Positions 26,193-54,566 of a stretch of DNA of 64,000 nucleotides are shown one piece after another. A program made the position numbers and the translations under genes. The notes beneath the pieces are model-generated. The model was given only the letters and a program-made list of their open reading frames with translations, was not told where the DNA came from and ran no database searches. Location of the stretch: positions 1 through 64,000 of the forward strand of contig SVCU01000008.1 in the NCBI GenBank assembly GCA_015058215.1. The letters run 5' to 3'. Position 1 is the stretch's first letter; every line of letters starts with the position of its first letter. The stretch comes from Clostridiales bacterium. GTDB taxonomy: Bacteria > Bacillota > Clostridia > Peptostreptococcales > Anaerovoracaceae.

Positions 26193-26220
26193 AAAAAGGC
26201 GACCCGAAGGGTCGCCTTTT
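26193..26220 (+). terminator. Rho-independent terminator after ftsH
   Basis: AAAAAGGCGACCC pairs with GGGTCGCCTTTT over a GAA loop. The next gene starts only 12 bp later. Confidence 0.85.
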
Positions 26221-45717: not shown

Positions 45718-47166
45718 ATGAACGAAGAAAAGAAGACCAAGTCCGTGAAAGAAACCAAGCTGATCCACGGTCTGATCACCATGATCCTTCTGATCGCGAT
45801 CATGGCAGTCGCCATTCTGGTTTATGGCGTTGATCCCCACATCCCCATGTTCATCGGTGTTATCATCGCAGCACTGATGGCTCTCTATCTGAAATATTCC
45901 TGGGAAGACATCGAAAAGGCAATGATGAGCGGCATCAACAGTGCCATGCAGTCCATCATCATTCTGGCCATCATTGGTGTACTGATCGGTATCTGGCTGG
46001 ATGCCGGCGTCGTCCCCGCCATGATCTACTACGGTCTGAAGATCCTGCATCCCTCCATCTTCTTCGTGGCAGTTCTGCTGATCTGCTCCATCACTTCTCT
46101 GGCAACCGGTACTTCCTGGGGTACCATCGGTACCATGGGCGTTGCCATGATGGGTATCGCAGTCGGTCTGGATATGGACCCTGCCATGACCGCCGGTGCC
46201 GTTCTGTCCGGTGCTTACTTCGGTGACAAGATGTCCCCCCTGTCCGATACCACCAACCTGGCTCCCGCCATGGCCGGTACCGACGTTATGACCCACGTGA
46301 AGTTCATGCTGCTGCCCACCGGTATCACCTACGGAATCAGCATCGTCTTCTTCGCAGTGCTGGGCATCCTGCAGTACCACGGCGGCGAAGCCGACACCAG
46401 CAAGGTGGTGGAACTTTCCTCCACTCTGTCCGAAATGTTCAACCTGAACCCCCTGCTGCTGCTGCCTCCCCTCGTTGTTATCGTGGCGGTTGCTATGAAG
46501 ATGCCCGCCATCCCCGGCATCACCCTGGGCATCATCACCGGTGCTGTTATGGGCCTGATCTTCCAGGGCGGCGACTGCACTCTGGGCTCCCTGCTCTATG
46601 CCGGCATGAACGGTTTTGAATGCGAAACCGGCATCTACGAAATCGACGAACTGCTGAACAGCGGCGGTCTGATGAACATGATGTTCTCCATCTCCCTGAC
46701 CATCCTGGCTATGATGTTCGGCGGTATTGTCGAATACACCGGTCAGCTGGGTGTTATCGTAGATAAGATCAAGAAGCTGGCCAAGAGTCCCGCTTCTCTG
46801 GTCACCCTCACCGAAGCCACCTGCGTACTGTCCAACGCCACCATGCCCGAACAGTACATTTCCATCATCATCCCCGGCCGTATGTATGCGGAAGAATATC
46901 GCAAGAAGGGCCTCCATCCCAAGACTCTGTCCAACGCTCTGGAAAGTTCCGGTACCGTTACTTCCGCTCTGATCCCCTGGAACACCTGCGGCGTTTTCAT
47001 CGCCGGTACCCTGGGCCTGGGTGTTGCTGAATACGGCATCTACGCCATCTTCAACTGGCTGATGCCCATCGTCACCATCGCACTGGCCTTCATGGGCATC
47101 ACCGTTGCCAACGCGGAAGGTGTTCGCCTGGCAAAGGCTAAGAAACTGGCAAAGGAAGCAAAGTAA
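45718..47166 (+). CDS. NhaC-family Na+/H+ antiporter-like transporter (second copy)
   Basis: This 482-residue membrane protein has about 11-12 helices and the NhaC hallmarks GTSWGTIGTMGVAMMGIAVG, GAYFGDKMSPLSDTTNLAPAM and SGTVTSALIPWNTCGVF. It is only distantly similar to the NhaC-like protein at 1.9 kb. The next gene, for an alanine/ornithine-racemase-family enzyme, begins on the base after its stop codon, so the two are tightly coupled. This pairing suggests the transporter may move an amino acid or amine rather than only Na+; that is inference. Confidence 0.88.
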   Translation: MNEEKKTKSVKETKLIHGLITMILLIAIMAVAILVYGVDPHIPMFIGVIIAALMALYLKYSWEDIEKAMMSGINSAMQSIIILAIIGVLIGIWLDAGVVPAMIYYGLKILHPSIFFVAVLLICSITSLATGTSWGTIGTMGVAMMGIAVGLDMDPAMTAGAVLSGAYFGDKMSPLSDTTNLAPAMAGTDVMTHVKFMLLPTGITYGISIVFFAVLGILQYHGGEADTSKVVELSSTLSEMFNLNPLLLLPPLVVIVAVAMKMPAIPGITLGIITGAVMGLIFQGGDCTLGSLLYAGMNGFECETGIYEIDELLNSGGLMNMMFSISLTILAMMFGGIVEYTGQLGVIVDKIKKLAKSPASLVTLTEATCVLSNATMPEQYISIIIPGRMYAEEYRKKGLHPKTLSNALESSGTVTSALIPWNTCGVFIAGTLGLGVAEYGIYAIFNWLMPIVTIALAFMGITVANAEGVRLAKAKKLAKEAK

Positions 47167-48258
47167 ATGAAACAAAATGAGATCCGGTATCCGGCCCTGG
47201 AAATCGATCTCGATCAATTGCAGGAAAATCTGGCAGCGCTGAAAGGGCGCTGCCAGTTTTCGTCTATCGGGATCGCCGGCGTGGTAAAGGGGTTCACCGC
47301 CCTGCCGGAAGTGGTGAAAACATTTGACGAAAGCGGTCTGGCTTTCATTGCCTCCTCCCGTATCGAGCAGCTAAAGCGCTGCAAGGAAAACGGCATCCGG
47401 ACTCCGCTGCTGCTGATCCGCATCCCCATGCTCTCCGAGCTGGCGGACGTGGTCCGCTACAGCGAAGCCAGTCTGGAGAGCGAACTCACCGTGCTGCGCG
47501 CCCTGAACGAAGAGGCTGCCCGCCAGGGCAAGACCCACCAGGTGCTGCTGATGGTGGATCTGGGCGATCTGCGGGAAGGCTTTTGGGACCGTGCAGAACT
47601 GGCTGCCGCCGCCCTGGAAGTGGAACGGGAGCTGGACAATTTGGAACTTGTAGGCATCGGCACCAACCTGGGCTGCTACGGCTCTGTGGCCGCCACCCCT
47701 GAAAAAATGGAAGAACTTCTGGATGCCGCCCGGGCCGTGGAAGAAGCCATCGGCCGCAAACTGCAGTGGATCAGCGGGGGCTCCACCTCCTCCGTCCCCA
47801 TGGTACTGGAAGGCACCATGCCCGCCGGCATCAACCTGCTCCGCCTGGGAGAAAGCATTCTGCAGGGCAACATCTGGGGCTATGAAACAGATCTGCTGCA
47901 CCGTCATGTCTTTACCCTGAAGGCGGAAGTGGTGGAACTGAAAACCAAGCCCAGCCACCCCGTGGGTAAACTCTCCTACGACTCCTTCGGCCGCCAGCCC
48001 GTCTACGAAGACCGGGGCGACCGCTGCCGCGCCCTGGTGGCCATCGGCCGGGTGGACTACGGTGAGCCCGGCGACCTGACCCCACGCATGGAAGGGGTGG
48101 AAGTGCTGGGGGCTTCCTCGGACCATACCATCCTGGATGTGGAGGCGGTGAAGGATCGGATCCACGTGGGGGACGTGCTGGAATTCGACCTGTGCTACTC
48201 CAATGCGGTCTACCTGACCAACACGGAAAGCGTCCACGTGTACACAAAAAAGAAATAA
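47167..48258 (+). CDS. Alanine/ornithine racemase family PLP enzyme
   Basis: This 363-residue fold-type III PLP enzyme has an alanine-racemase-like barrel. The likely PLP lysine is Lys41 in IAGVVKGF, the same position as in ornithine racemase (Orr) of amino-acid-fermenting clostridia. Other segments are LVGIGTNLGCYG, WISGGSTSSVP, LRLGESIL and the C-terminal beta domain (AIGRVDYGEPGDL). It likely racemises a basic or neutral amino acid; ornithine is the best guess by family. It has no ribosome binding site of its own beyond the end of the nhaC gene, which implies coupled translation. Confidence 0.85.
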   Translation: MKQNEIRYPALEIDLDQLQENLAALKGRCQFSSIGIAGVVKGFTALPEVVKTFDESGLAFIASSRIEQLKRCKENGIRTPLLLIRIPMLSELADVVRYSEASLESELTVLRALNEEAARQGKTHQVLLMVDLGDLREGFWDRAELAAAALEVERELDNLELVGIGTNLGCYGSVAATPEKMEELLDAARAVEEAIGRKLQWISGGSTSSVPMVLEGTMPAGINLLRLGESILQGNIWGYETDLLHRHVFTLKAEVVELKTKPSHPVGKLSYDSFGRQPVYEDRGDRCRALVAIGRVDYGEPGDLTPRMEGVEVLGASSDHTILDVEAVKDRIHVGDVLEFDLCYSNAVYLTNTESVHVYTKKK

Positions 48259-48475: not shown

Positions 48476-48504
48476 TTGAATTATAGTAATGGGTGCTATA
48501 TAAT
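48476..48504 (+). promoter_or_regulatory. Promoter of the AT-rich SAP-domain gene
   Basis: TTGAAT and a consensus TATAAT are separated by 17 nt. The transcript would start near 48511, leaving a leader of under 20 nt. The rest of the 48259-48475 gap shows no gene. Confidence 0.85.
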
Positions 48505-48528
48505 TATTGCAAAAAAGGAGGCGGGGAA

Positions 48529-50322
48529 GTGGCAAAAAAGAACTACTGGGGTTTTGATAAAAAGAATGCAGATAGACGTAGGAGAGGGCAGGACTATTTT
48601 TATGAACTTGGAAAGGCCTTGAAGAAAATGCCTTCGGGACGAAAGAGGAAGGGAAAGAAGCGATCTTATTCGTCAAAAAAAACATATTCAGGTTCTAAAA
48701 CTCGAAATAGTTCCACGCATGTGCCAGTGACGCAGTATCAAGCACAAGAACCAGCAACCTTTGGAGATTTTATGTTCGGCCTTGGTTTTATGGCCGTAAT
48801 TATTATAATACTTATCCTTTTCCTTGTGATTGGCTTTTGGAAAACAATACTGCTTGCGGCAGGGATATTCGTTGCGATTATTGTTATTCTAGTAGCAATT
48901 GAGTTAGTGAAGGAAAATAAGAAAAACCAAAAGACTACGTATTCTGAAGATAGAAGTAACCAAATACCATATATTAAAAGTCTTCTCGGAAATCTCAAAC
49001 GGTACCAGGATGTTGCAAATACGTCGAATAATCCTGATGAAGTAAAGAAAAACTTGGATTATTTACTTGGGGTTATCGATGAAATAATGACATTCGATGA
49101 AGCGCTACTGAAACAAGCTGGTATGACAAAAGTAAATGCGGTTTCGGTAAAAGAAGATATTTTGAAAGTGTATGATGAAATGATTGCACAAGCCGGTCAG
49201 ACGGATGAAATGGATTCTGCAATCACTGAACAAGCAACAGAATCTTCGCTTCCAGAAGAAATTGCGAAACCACAGCCTATAGTTTCTAAAGAAGGGATTA
49301 TTCCGCTAGAAACACTTTTGAAGACAGCCACCCTTTCCAAGCAGGGGCTTTATCCCCATGAAATTCTTATGTTGCATTATGCTAACACCTATAAAGTGGG
49401 TGGAGGTAATTCGTTCCAACACTTCTGGCTATATCAGTATTCTGTTGGGAACCCGCAGAATGTTTTAAATTCTTTACTTGAACGAGGATTCCTTGTCATT
49501 GGAGACTTGAAGTCTGCTTTGGAACGTCAAACAGTTATTGATATTAAAGCTGAACTCCAAGCAATTGGCGAAAAGACAGCAGGAAAAAAGGCTGAGTTAA
49601 TAACTCGTTTGCTCAATAGTGGTAATATTGACAGACTGGAAGTGAAATATCCAGAACGCTATTATGCTTTAACCGAAGCAGCTATTAAGGAACTGGAGGA
49701 AAACGAGTATGTTTTATACCTGCATCGGACAAAGCGAATGTCTGTGTGGGATATGAATTATATGCTCTTTCATGACAACCCTTTGCATTTGAGGTATAGA
49801 GATATCCTCTGGCGAGAATTCAATATTCAAGCTGGAGAGCATTTTAAAGTAGGTGATATGGGACTTTATCGAAATACTCGAATGAACATGTATCAATTCC
49901 TTATGGAAGAGGATCGTATAAAATCGGCGTTTACTATGCTTTGCGAAGTGGTAGCCTATGATTTGAGTGGCATGGGAAACCAAGAAATCTTCCAACCTTC
50001 TGAGGAAATGAAGAAGGTTGTGATGGAGTATACCCTTAAATCTTGCTTCCCTTACAACGCTTCAAGCGCAACAATGCCCCCGGCTGTCATTGAGTGGATG
50101 ACAGACATAAAAGAACAGCTCGGAATGTCTGAAAAAGAATTTAGGGCTGCACTTCTAGAAAACTTTGAGAAAATCAAACTTTTTAGAAGGATATTTACAA
50201 ACGAAGAATGTGTTGAAATCGTAATGAACGAGATAAATAATCATCCTCGGAAGCAGGCTGCCATTTATAAACAGGCGGAAGAACGTATGAGACGGGAATA
50301 TGAGTCTTTGAATATCTCGTGA
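48529..50322 (+). CDS. AT-rich SAP-domain membrane protein, likely acquired by transfer
   Basis: This 598-residue protein starts with a very basic region (residues 1-65, many Lys, Arg and Ser), then two close hydrophobic helices (about 85-135), a helical region (150-240) and a SAP-like motif at about 335-365 (TVIDIKAELQAIGEKTAGKK, then AELITRLLNSG), which in other proteins binds nucleic acids. The C-terminal 200 residues match no family I know. Start is GTG at 48529, 7 nt after AAGGAGG. Codon use is AT-rich (AAA, GAA, ATT, TTA), unlike every neighbour, a sign of recent transfer. Relatives occur as accessory proteins of unknown function. Confidence 0.8.
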   Translation: MAKKNYWGFDKKNADRRRRGQDYFYELGKALKKMPSGRKRKGKKRSYSSKKTYSGSKTRNSSTHVPVTQYQAQEPATFGDFMFGLGFMAVIIIILILFLVIGFWKTILLAAGIFVAIIVILVAIELVKENKKNQKTTYSEDRSNQIPYIKSLLGNLKRYQDVANTSNNPDEVKKNLDYLLGVIDEIMTFDEALLKQAGMTKVNAVSVKEDILKVYDEMIAQAGQTDEMDSAITEQATESSLPEEIAKPQPIVSKEGIIPLETLLKTATLSKQGLYPHEILMLHYANTYKVGGGNSFQHFWLYQYSVGNPQNVLNSLLERGFLVIGDLKSALERQTVIDIKAELQAIGEKTAGKKAELITRLLNSGNIDRLEVKYPERYYALTEAAIKELEENEYVLYLHRTKRMSVWDMNYMLFHDNPLHLRYRDILWREFNIQAGEHFKVGDMGLYRNTRMNMYQFLMEEDRIKSAFTMLCEVVAYDLSGMGNQEIFQPSEEMKKVVMEYTLKSCFPYNASSATMPPAVIEWMTDIKEQLGMSEKEFRAALLENFEKIKLFRRIFTNEECVEIVMNEINNHPRKQAAIYKQAEERMRREYESLNIS

Positions 50323-50672: not shown

Positions 50673-51971
50673 TTATTCGTCCTTCTGGTCGATCATGATC
50701 TTCAGGATTTCGGTATCGGTGCTTCTCATGCCCACGCGGCCGATGTGGCCCATGCTGGCGATGGTGGCTTCGATGTCGTCCTGTACGATGCCTTCGCCGG
50801 ACTGGAATACGTGATCGGCGCTGTCCAGGTGGTGGGCCAGGATGGCGGCATCCACGGCGGAAGCGATCTTGGCTGCGCAGGAGCTCTTGGCACCGTCACA
50901 GACGATACCGCCCACGTTGGCGATGGTGTTGACGATGGTGTTGCAGATGGCGTTGTAGTCGCCGCCGCAGAGATAGGAGATGGCAGCACCGGCACCGCTG
51001 GCAGCGGTGACTGCGCCGCAGTAGGCGGAGAGGCTGCCGATGTACTTTTTCTGGTGGACGGAGATCAGGTTGCTGATGCAGAGGGCTCTGTAGAGCTTTT
51101 CGTCGGAAACGCCCAGTTCTTTGGCGTATTCGATAACGGGCAGGGAAACGGTCATGCCCTGGTTGCCGCTGCCGGAGTTGATGACAACGGGCAGGGAGCA
51201 GCCGCCCATACGGGCATCGGAGCCTGCGGCTGCGCGGGCGCGGGCGCGAACCTTGATGTCGTCACCGTAGACGTTCAGCAGGGTGCGGCCTACCTGTGCG
51301 CCGTAGGCATTCTTCATGCCTTCGTCGGAAATGGTGCTGTTCATCTGGATCTGGCGGTCCAGCACGTCCTTCACGTCTTCCACATTGACGGATTCAGCGA
51401 ATTCCAGGATGCGGGCAATGGAGAGCAGGGAACGGTCTGCGGCCTCTTCCTCGGCGGCGGCGATGCCCTTCTTGTCGGCCATGGGGTCCAGGGAGTAGAT
51501 CACTTCCCAGTCCTTTACGATCTTGGTGATCAGGGTGTGGCGGTTGACGATGGTGACTTCGACGAAGTGATCGCGGGTGATGACCTTGGCGGCGACATAG
51601 AGGTTTTCTACGCCTTCGGCCAGACGGCAGGTGCAGTAATCGGTGCCGATCAGGTCTTTGGTACGGGCGATGTGGTCTGCGGTGACGCTTTCCAGAACTT
51701 CCAGTTCCACGTCGGCATCGCCGCCCAGAACACCCAGGATGGCGGCGGCTTCAATGCCTTTCAGGCCGCCGGAGTTGGGAACGGTTACGCCTTTTACGTT
51801 TTTGATGATATTGCCGGAGCAGAGAACTTCGATGCGATCCGGCTGCTGACCCAGAATGGACCGTGCCTTAGCGGCGGCATAGGCGATGGCGATGGGTTCG
51901 GTGCAGCCCAGTGCGGGAACCAGTTCCTGCTTCAAGATGTTGACAAAATTACGATAGATTTTCTGGTCCAT
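50673..51971 (-). CDS. cyuA: L-cysteine desulfidase family protein (CyuA/YhaM, UPF0597)
   Basis: This 432-residue protein matches the UPF0597/CyuA family, iron-sulfur enzymes that break L-cysteine into pyruvate, ammonia and sulfide; relatives include serine dehydratase subunits. Conserved parts are ALGCTEPIAIAYAAAKAR, GNIIKNVKGVTVPNSGG, MGGCSLPVVINSGSGNQG and CDGAKSSCAAKI, with cysteines that could hold the cluster. Its promoter is overlapped by a 23 bp perfect palindrome and faces a GntR regulator gene, so cysteine catabolism is likely controlled by a small effector. The ATG at 51971 follows AGGAGG. Confidence 0.9.
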   Translation of the reverse strand: MDQKIYRNFVNILKQELVPALGCTEPIAIAYAAAKARSILGQQPDRIEVLCSGNIIKNVKGVTVPNSGGLKGIEAAAILGVLGGDADVELEVLESVTADHIARTKDLIGTDYCTCRLAEGVENLYVAAKVITRDHFVEVTIVNRHTLITKIVKDWEVIYSLDPMADKKGIAAAEEEAADRSLLSIARILEFAESVNVEDVKDVLDRQIQMNSTISDEGMKNAYGAQVGRTLLNVYGDDIKVRARARAAAGSDARMGGCSLPVVINSGSGNQGMTVSLPVIEYAKELGVSDEKLYRALCISNLISVHQKKYIGSLSAYCGAVTAASGAGAAISYLCGGDYNAICNTIVNTIANVGGIVCDGAKSSCAAKIASAVDAAILAHHLDSADHVFQSGEGIVQDDIEATIASMGHIGRVGMRSTDTEILKIMIDQKDE

Positions 51972-51999
51972 TTCGGGATATCCTCCTACGGTAAGCTTC

Positions 52000-52022
52000 T
52001 GATATGATTACTAATCATATCA
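52000..52022. promoter_or_regulatory. Perfect palindromic operator over the cyuA promoter
   Basis: TGATATGATTA, one base, then TAATCATATCA gives perfect 11 bp half-sites. It covers the -10 box of the cyuA promoter completely. The divergent GntR-family protein is the natural candidate to bind it. Confidence 0.85.
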
Positions 52023-52042
52023 CGGAGAAATGGGGCGGTCAA
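52014..52042 (-). promoter_or_regulatory. Promoter of cyuA
   Basis: On the minus strand TTGACC and TATGAT are separated by 17 nt. The -10 box lies inside the palindromic operator. Confidence 0.85.
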
Positions 52043-52054
52043 GAGGAAAGGACA

Positions 52055-52083
52055 TGGACAAATGCGGGTTTTCAAATTATAAT
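52055..52083 (+). promoter_or_regulatory. Promoter of the gntR-mutY-ung unit
   Basis: TGGACA and a consensus TATAAT are 17 nt apart. This promoter is back to back with that of cyuA and does not overlap the palindrome. Confidence 0.85.
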
Positions 52084-52115
52084 GATTTCATTGAGAGAAA
52101 CTTTGGAGGTACCTT

Positions 52116-52745
52116 ATGAAAAAGGACAGCACTCTGAAAGACGCGGTCTACGCCGCGGTGCTGGATGGTATTATTCGGGATGAATATAAACCCGGCCAGA
52201 TCATCAGTGAGAAGGATCTGACGGAGAAGCACGGCGTCAGCAAGGCTCCGGTGCGGGAAGCGCTGATCGCTCTCTGCAGTCAGGGGGTGCTGCGCAGCAT
52301 TCCCCGGTGCGGATACCAGATCATCGCGCTGACCACAAAGGATATTTACGAGATCCTGACCTTCCGTTCCATCCTGGAAAAGGTCTGTCTGCGGACCTTC
52401 TGCGGCAAACTGACGGAGGAACAGTTTGCGGAGCTGGAGGAACTGAACCGACTGTGCTGTGACACGGAGGCGGGGGACGATATGTGGGCCCACTGGGACC
52501 ATAATGCGGCCTTCCACCTGAAGCTGGCATCCTATGCCGAAAACAATTATATTTACAAGGAACTGGAACGCTCCATGGATATTCTGCGGCGCGCTTATGC
52601 CCAGCATTACTGGGATAAATGGACGCCTTCCTCGGGACTGCTGGATGTAAAGTCCCACAAGCAGCTGATCAATGCGCTGCGGGAAGGCAATCTGATGGCG
52701 GCGGAGATCTATCTGGAAGCGGACATCGGAGATTTCGGCGTATGA
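52116..52745 (+). CDS. GntR-family transcriptional regulator, FadR subfamily (FCD domain)
   Basis: This 209-residue regulator has an N-terminal winged helix (about 5-72: LDGIIRDEYKPGQIISEKDL, GVSKAPVREALIALCSQGVL) and a C-terminal all-helical FCD ligand domain (about 78-200) with the metal-binding type pattern DHNAAFHLKLA. FCD regulators sense small acids or amino acid derivatives. It is divergent from cyuA, whose promoter holds a 23 bp palindrome, so control of cysteine breakdown is the most likely role. GGAGG precedes the ATG. Its end overlaps the mutY start by 4 nt (ATGA), an unusual pairing. Confidence 0.92.
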   Translation: MKKDSTLKDAVYAAVLDGIIRDEYKPGQIISEKDLTEKHGVSKAPVREALIALCSQGVLRSIPRCGYQIIALTTKDIYEILTFRSILEKVCLRTFCGKLTEEQFAELEELNRLCCDTEAGDDMWAHWDHNAAFHLKLASYAENNYIYKELERSMDILRRAYAQHYWDKWTPSSGLLDVKSHKQLINALREGNLMAAEIYLEADIGDFGV

Positions 52746-53857
52746 CGAAAGAACAAGACAAAGCACTGCTGGAGCGCATCGTATCGCCTCTGCTGGAATG
52801 GTACGGCCGGGAGGCCCGGGATCTTCCCTGGCGGAAGGAACCGAAGCCCTATCACATCTGGCTTTCGGAAATCATTTTTCAGCAGACCCGCATCGAGGCG
52901 GGAACGGCTTATTACCTGCGCTTTTTGCAGGAAGTGCCCGGCGTGAAGGAACTGGCGGAGCTTCCCGAAGAAAAGCTGCTGAAGCTGTGGGAAGGTCTTG
53001 GGTATTACAACCGGGCCCGCAATTTGCAGAAGGCGGCAAAACTGGTAATGGCGGAGTACGGGGGAGAGCTTCCCGGTACGGCCGCAGAGCTGGAAAAACT
53101 GCCGGGCATCGGAAGCTATACGGCGGGGGCCATTGCCTCCATTGCCTTCGGACAGCCCGTGCCGGCGGTGGACGGAAACGTGCTGCGGGTGCTGTCCCGG
53201 GTCCTTGCCCGGTACAACGACATCGCCCTGCAGGAAACCAAGAAGAATATGGAGCGGGAGCTGGCACCGGTGATCCCGGAAGAAGCCCCCGGTGATTTCA
53301 ATCAGGCTCTCATGGATCTGGGTGCCATGGTCTGCATCCCCAATGGAGAGCCGCGCTGCGGCCTCTGTCCCCTGCGGGGCCTTTGCAGAGCCGCGGCGGA
53401 AGGGCTGACGGCGGAACTTCCCGTGAAGGGGGCTGCGAAAGCCCGGCGGACAGAGCAGCGGACGCTGCTCCTTCTGACCTATCCGGGGAAGGACGGAAAA
53501 AAACGCTGCTTCCTGCGGAAAAGAGAGGGAAAAGGGCTGCTGGCCGGTCTGTGGGAAATCCCCGGCGCAGAGGGCGATCTGGGGCCTTCTGAAGCGAAGG
53601 AAACAGCGGCGGACTTGCTGAGAACCATGGGCTGCGGCCCGGAGGCGGAATCCGCTGCAGCGAAAGCGGCCTGCAAGCCTTTGCCAGATAGCAAGCACGT
53701 GTTCAGTCATGTGGAGTGGCATATGAAGGCCTGGGAAATCGCCTTTCCCGAGGCACCGCAAGGCAACGCTCATCAGGTATGGGCAACGGCAGAGGAAGTG
53801 GAACGCGCTTACAGTCTGCCGTCGGCGTTTAAAGCCTACAAAAAGTTTTTGAAATAG
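52742..53857 (+). CDS. mutY: A/G-specific adenine glycosylase
   Basis: This 371-residue DNA repair enzyme removes adenine mispaired with 8-oxoguanine or guanine. The N-terminal part has the helix-hairpin-helix glycosylase core ([17 protein letters not shown], then [12 protein letters not shown] with the catalytic Asp) and an iron-sulfur ligand cluster (C-x7-C-x2-C-x5-C ending [10 protein letters not shown], near residues 199-215). A NUDIX-like C-terminal domain (about 235-371) recognises 8-oxoguanine; the region near 295-315 is low in complexity ([10 protein letters not shown]). The start overlaps the gntR stop. Confidence 0.95.
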
Positions 53858-53894: not shown

Positions 53895-54566
53895 ATGGTA
53901 CACCTGGGAAACGACTGGGATAATCTCCTGGCCGACGAATTCGAAAAAGAGTATTACCGGAATCTGCGGCAGTTCCTGCTGAGCGAATATCGCAGCGGCC
54001 CTGTGTATCCGCCGGCGGGGGATCTTTTCAACGCCCTGAAGCACACCGCGTACAGCGATGTAAAAGTGGTGATCCTGGGGCAGGACCCTTACCACGGACC
54101 GGGCCAGGCCCATGGCCTCTGCTTCTCCGTGCAGAAGGGAGTACCGCAGCCGCCTTCCCTGAAGAATATTTTCAAGGAGCTGGAGAGCGATCTGGGGATC
54201 CCGGCGCCGTCCCATGGGTTCCTGGAAGCCTGGGCGGACCAGGGGGTGCTGCTTCTGAACACGGTGCTTTCCGTGCGGGGCGGCCAGGCCAATTCTCACA
54301 AGGGAAAGGGTTGGGAAACCTTCACCGACCGGGTGATCCGCCTGCTGGATCAGCGGGAGAAACCCATGGTATTTCTGCTGTGGGGAGCCAATGCGGGGGC
54401 GAAGAAAGCCTTGTTGGAAAATCCGAACCATCTGATTTTGTCCGCACCCCATCCCAGCCCGCTGTCCGCTTACAGCGGCTTCTTCGGCTGCAGACATTTC
54501 TCCAGAGCCAACACCTTCCTGCAGGCCAATGGCATCGCACCTGTGGATTGGCGGATCCCGGAATAA
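53895..54566 (+). CDS. ung: Uracil-DNA glycosylase, family 1
   Basis: This 223-residue enzyme excises uracil from DNA. The water-activating loop [18 protein letters not shown] begins near residue 62, the uracil-binding LLNTVLSV segment is near 122 and the DNA-intercalation loop [14 protein letters not shown] is near 187. All key catalytic residues are present. The ATG at 53895 has GGAGG 5 nt upstream. It lies 37 bp after mutY, so two base-excision repair glycosylases share a transcript that begins at the GntR gene. Confidence 0.97.

Follow-up and report, generated by a model that had tools for sequence, protein, structure and literature searches.

The analysed window, a 64,000-nucleotide stretch of DNA from a Clostridiales bacterium, carries an L-cysteine desulfidase gene, cyuA, and, in the divergent orientation, a gene encoding a GntR-family regulator (Table 1). 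The region singled out by a sequence-only reading, 51972-52115, is precisely the intergenic gap between these two genes. The CyuA protein of the window matches the solved L-cysteine desulfidase 9he0/9fsl (E 8.9e-22) and keeps the three [4Fe-4S] cluster ligands C318, C358 and C365 together with the catalytic C23, which align with Cys287, Cys329, Cys336 and Cys23 of MmCyuA, respectively. Judged by this alignment, it has the cluster and catalytic cysteines expected of an L-cysteine desulfidase. The window also contains an NhaC-type antiporter gene directly followed by an ornithine-racemase-like gene (45718-48258). At 48493-50322 it encodes a 609-residue protein whose only assigned domain is SAP and which includes a hydrophobic segment of membrane-spanning appearance.

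Table 1. Predicted genes, promoter elements and candidate operator sites of the cyuA-gntR region
Feature	Position	Strand	Remarks
cyuA, L-cysteine desulfidase, 432 aa	50673..51971	-	start codon at 51971; Pfam SDH_alpha PF03313, 4.7e-64
Candidate two-site operator array (perfect 23-bp palindrome)	52000..52022		TRATNNNATYA-N-TRATNNNATYA, 0 mismatches
Candidate operator site 2, TAATCATATCA on minus strand	52000..52010	-	~-3 to +7 of predicted cyuA transcription start
Candidate operator site 1, TGATATGATTA on minus strand	52012..52022	-	holds cyuA extended -10 element
-10 box of predicted cyuA promoter, TATGAT	52014..52019	-	17-nt spacer, TG before (extended)
-35 box of predicted cyuA promoter, TTGACC	52037..52042	-	sigma-70-type
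Predicted gntR promoter, TGGACA-17-TATAAT	52055..52083	+	adjoins array without overlap
GntR-family regulator, FadR/FCD subfamily, 209 aa	52116..52745	+	Pfam hits, subfamily alignment

The regulator is composed of an N-terminal GntR winged helix-turn-helix (HTH) domain (PF00392, 6.8e-13) and a C-terminal FCD domain (PF07729, 2e-15), both scoring above the cut-off, which bears out its earlier description as a FadR-type protein encoded divergently from cyuA. Only about 7 residues precede the HTH domain. In many FCD domains the metal-site residues are Asp/Asn-His-His-His. Residues N130, H134, H181 and D203 of the regulator, invariant across the 24 homologs in the subfamily alignment, align with D, H, H and H of 3sxy, the last His being replaced by Asp. 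Such an Asn-His-His-Asp site could change metal or ligand binding. A thiol switch at C114 was considered but not adopted: this residue is suggestive in most cyuA-linked members, but it is absent from two of them (L116 and L123; L-numbers denote the other genomes compared) and is present in two unlinked ones. The end of gntR overlaps by 4 bases (ATGA) a gene for a MutY-type A/G mismatch glycosylase (HhH-GPD and NUDIX_4; 52742-53857), after which lies a uracil-DNA-glycosylase-like gene recognized by motif only (approximately 53895-54566), and the regulator may be cotranscribed with these DNA repair genes.

The perfect palindrome previously claimed for the gap, with two 11-nt arms around a single base, is present at 52000-52022 (TGATATGATTA-C-TAATCATATCA), and its arms are exactly complementary. 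At up to 3 mismatches it is its own sole match in the window, 100 dinucleotide shuffles of the window gave 0 matches, and the proposed search of the whole 1.73-Mb genome returned a single copy, the one at cyuA. The only other perfect palindrome of such length in the window, a 12-3-12 structure at 26194-26220, is GC-rich, flanked by A and T runs and terminator-like. The palindrome at 52000-52022 covers, as had been proposed, the cyuA -10 box (TATGAT, 52019-52014), and the predicted cyuA transcription start, at approximately 52007, lies inside it.

Related genomes provided the basis for an operator rule. The unit TRATNNNATYA, with one base between adjacent units, was read from seven intergenic regions. 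When gapped 4-mer palindromes were counted without bias over ten regions, the highest ranks went to ATAT-N8-ATAT, CTGA-N5-TCAG, GATA-N1-TATC and TGAT-N3-ATCA, the first of which, representing a 12-bp step, was found in 8/10 regions versus 0.05 expected. Among pairs of 11-mers lying within 30 bp of each other, 20 were spaced by exactly 12 bp (0.07 expected), and no other spacing gave a comparable peak. The two-unit array (TRATNNNATYA-N-TRATNNNATYA, up to 2 mismatches) was sought within 300 bp upstream of cyuA and was detected in 17 of the 19 non-redundant cases in which cyuA is linked to the regulator (the window and 18 other genomes). These comprise all 7 genomes that defined the motif and 10 of the 12 that had no part in its definition (shuffle mean 0.09, largest 2), although 6 of the latter (L124, L060, L049, L121, L122 and L123) had been inspected before the test, so not all of them were blind. 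The departures are L123, with a single site, and L117, with none; L044 was excluded, as only the last part of cyuA adjoins its gntR. The array also stays with cyuA where the regulator gene is codirectional (L109, L112 and L116). In contrast, only 1 of the 29 upstream regions of cyuA genes without the regulator had an array (shuffle mean 0.32), and this array-like AT-rich sequence (L085, 1 mismatch) is compatible with chance. Chance array matches at 1 mismatch do occur in AT-rich genomes, and those of L127, located inside a coding gene of such a genome, were set aside.

The order of the 11-mers differs between genomes. L122 has the two 11-mers of the window swapped (TAATCATATCA-T-TGATATGATTA) and still forms, like the window, a perfect 23-bp palindrome. 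Further orders are found in L032, L039, L049 and others, the units being direct, head-to-head or tail-to-tail, always at the 12-bp step, and L049 and L120 have three 11-mers in a row. The swapped order in L122 suggests that the functional unit is probably an 11-bp site and that two such sites in an array make up the 23-bp palindrome, which is probably one outcome of placing two near-symmetric 11-mers side by side. A single 23-bp palindrome was therefore rejected as the general conserved unit, since relatives share the 11-mers and their step but not their order. The claim that the palindrome is an operator is supported insofar as the array tracks the regulator at cyuA, but two adjacent 11-bp sites with their centres 12 bp apart describe the sequence better than one 23-bp palindromic operator. 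The regulator promoter had been described as adjacent but free. It does not overlap the palindrome, but a weak single 11-mer, TAATGATTTCA (52080-52090, 1 mismatch), touches its -10 box, so that its freedom is only probable; this 11-mer may be a chance match.

Genes for regulators of this subfamily adjoin cyuA in many genomes, drawn from several families of the class to which the window belongs. A close relative with 56% identity, found by genome scan in a Lachnospiraceae (Hungatella) genome, is also divergent from cyuA, and searches of related genomes gave further homologs at 34-51% identity. Of the members from the family of the window, nearly all of those sharing more than approximately 42% identity are divergent from cyuA; in other families the pair is divergent, codirectional or absent. 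Viral contigs and plasmids that were searched contained no relatives of the regulator. In a tree of 31 regulators, with poor basal resolution, the cyuA-linked members occupy several branches and the protein of the window is nearest to regulators from families of the class other than its own, a position that would fit transfer but does not demonstrate it.

The arrays occupy preferred positions relative to the predicted promoters. In 13/19 upstream regions the best array spans -27..-5 or -15..+7 as counted from the predicted start, and a second array in L116 raises the number of regions with such an array to 14/19; these counts are to be read with the caveat that the promoter finder uses a -10 box lying within the 11-mer unit. 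The -35 boxes, which were placed independently, are mostly TTGAC-like and favour the promoter predictions. In addition, each site shares sequence with the promoter itself (TGnTATnAT), yet the control promoters lack the array. In either position the extended -10 element falls on one 11-mer, and the second 11-mer is displaced from it by one 12-bp step. The array of the window is at -15..+7, which, as predicted from the promoter, is a blocking position of the kind used by a simple ligand-released repressor.

The regulator and its putative operator can be compared with several known systems. Most sites of the FadR subfamily conform to TKGT-N3-ACMA, and members with other motifs include NanR and BioR (PMC4494728). 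The pair described here resembles the local repressors of this subfamily acting in divergons in that it consists of a GntR protein with an FCD domain, a divergent gene pair and a near-palindromic site with 3-nt spacing, located nearer to the structural gene (PMC4494728). It differs from them in the core, which is TRAT-N3-ATYA, in the 12-bp-phased array fused to an extended -10 element, and in the target, a cysteine desulfidase. The TRAT core does not bar membership in the subfamily, as TKGT-N3-ACMA is common but not defining (PMC4494728). An Arg at HTH position 28 has been linked to the core G, which a Pro at position 40 avoids (PMC4494728); our regulator has Lys33 and Pro45 at these positions (alignment read by eye), which fits the change of the core from G to A.

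NanR of E. coli offers the nearest parallel to a repeat operator occupied by more than one FCD-GntR dimer: several NanR dimers bind cooperatively to the (GGTATA)3 operator by means of a 32-residue N-terminal extension (PMC8012715). In both systems an FCD-type GntR protein goes with closely spaced repeat sites, but the sequence, step and symmetry of the repeats differ, and with its few residues before the HTH domain the regulator of the window lacks the extension of NanR. In E. coli and enteric bacteria, cyuPA is activated in a cysteine-dependent manner by the Lrp-family protein CyuR/DecR (PMC9040844, PMC11408624). The contrast with CyuR drawn in the sequence-only reading proved correct: both systems act at cyuA, but the adjoining regulator here belongs to the unrelated GntR/FCD family and the operator does not match the CyuR motif, GAAwAAATTGTxGxxATTTsyCC (PMC11408624, PMC9040844). 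In Clostridium difficile, cdsB has a sigma-54 (-24/-12) promoter and depends on CdsR (PMC5767170). As proposed for the window, a Clostridia-type bacterium places its cysteine desulfidase under separate control, but the window has a predicted sigma-70 promoter and a GntR regulator instead. Our search of the openly accessible literature revealed neither a GntR regulator of a cysteine desulfidase nor the 11-mers; absence from it is not proof.

Based on these observations, we consider it probable that the neighbouring GntR/FCD regulator has its operator at 52000-52022 and that this operator serves in ligand-relieved repression of cyuA. Sequence comparison shows the family of the regulator, the association of the array with it, the spacing of the sites and their phase with the predicted promoter, and it strongly supports the proposed link between regulator and operator. 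Binding, repression, dimer number and ligand are what we infer beyond this, repression by the regulator being likely and cysteine as the ligand plausible. According to the proposed mechanism, two internally near-symmetric 11-bp sites, the first on the extended -10 element and the second across the transcription start, would be occupied by regulator dimers side by side, which would block RNA polymerase. Binding of a cysteine-related ligand to the FCD domain would release the dimers from the DNA and allow transcription of cyuA, so that cysteine would be converted to pyruvate, ammonia and sulfide only when it is in supply. The promoter of gntR itself would be outside the control of this array. 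We also put forward, more tentatively and with rather less than even confidence, that a distinct FCD subfamily with an altered Asn-His-His-Asp effector site might govern cysteine use in many Clostridia-type bacteria by means of 11-bp sites arranged as a ladder with a fixed 12-bp step, in which one rung lies on the extended -10 element, others lie upstream or downstream, and dimers stack cooperatively.

The half-sites of many HTH dimers are usually spaced by about one helical turn. The 12-bp step is close to this value, and the arrays of both the window and L122 are perfect 23-bp palindromes, as would be expected if one regulator dimer covered the whole 23 bp and each 11-mer were a half-site for one helix-turn-helix, about one turn of DNA apart. 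We regard this as unlikely, since the 11-mers of other genomes stand in direct, head-to-head and tail-to-tail orders, even three in a row (L049 and L120), and the 11-mer has a symmetry of its own, with the same 3-nt spacing as FadR-type sites. The examples of CyuR, which activates cyuPA in E. coli (PMC9040844, PMC11408624), and of C. difficile cdsB, which needs CdsR (PMC5767170), raise the question of whether the array is instead an activator site, from which the regulator would, in the presence of cysteine, assist RNA polymerase at cyuA. This is quite improbable, as the arrays cover the -10 element and the predicted start, or the -35/-10 spacer, and the promoters keep a good -35 box and an extended -10 element, which by sequence need no activator. 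A perfect inverted repeat is also able to fold in RNA, but a hairpin or attenuator, or a promoter-linked repeat unconnected to the regulator, has hardly any likelihood: with the predicted start inside the palindrome, part of it would be transcribed at most, and control cyuA genes lack the array. An Rfam scan of the cyuA leader and the palindrome matched no family, and an RNA element at this position was rejected on these grounds.

Within the repressor-operator interpretation, which we prefer, the nature of the ligand calls for separate consideration. The operator reading may be right and the ligand may be other than cysteine, e.g. a peptide, a thiazoline or thiazolidine carboxylate, serine or a breakdown product. 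Array-bearing paralogs at ATC-hydrolase, peptide/amino-acid ABC transporter and URO-D-like genes speak for this, as do cyuA neighbours that include SDF symporters and Liv-type and Dpp-type transporters. Some members of the subfamily are not located beside cyuA, so cyuA is not the sole target across the subfamily. We nevertheless consider a different ligand somewhat doubtful, because cyuA is the commonest partner of the regulator, the only array of its own genome is at cyuA, and the name of ATC hydrolase refers to a reaction with L-cysteine as its product. With up to 1 mismatch allowed, the genome of the window contains no array beyond the one at cyuA (at 2 mismatches there are only two further matches), which makes cyuA the likely sole target there. 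Arrays of paralogs lie upstream of an ATC-hydrolase family gene in L114 (5088-5110, 0 mismatches), as a run of TRATNNNATYA units upstream of an ATC-hydrolase family gene near a regulator paralog in L120 (4773-4819), and, in L128 (1501-1523), between an ATC-hydrolase-like gene, assigned by resemblance, and a peptide-transporter operon that also contains a regulator paralog. These locations point to cysteine or a related thiol compound as the putative ligand, and the arrays of L128, L114 and L120 suggest a wider cysteine- or thiazoline-related regulon.

Anaerobic bacteria release hydrogen sulfide when they break down cysteine, and the literature searched gave us no description of how this breakdown is controlled in the present group. 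The GntR/FCD protein would be a third, unrelated type of cysteine desulfidase regulator, after Lrp-type CyuR and sigma-54/CdsR. The precise operator rule can be used to annotate the regulon in other genomes, and the analysis provides a set of ligand candidates for a subfamily of otherwise unnamed regulators.

Two further features of the gene neighbourhoods were recorded. Regulator paralogs are found near URO-D-like (methyltransferase-type) genes in L058, L059, L113, L118 and L119, the paralog of L058 being also near a more distant cyuA homolog. In L109 (7912-9189) and L112 (7916-9175) an SDF (sodium:dicarboxylate) symporter gene is located directly downstream of cyuA, and its product is a candidate for the importer of cysteine or serine in the operon.
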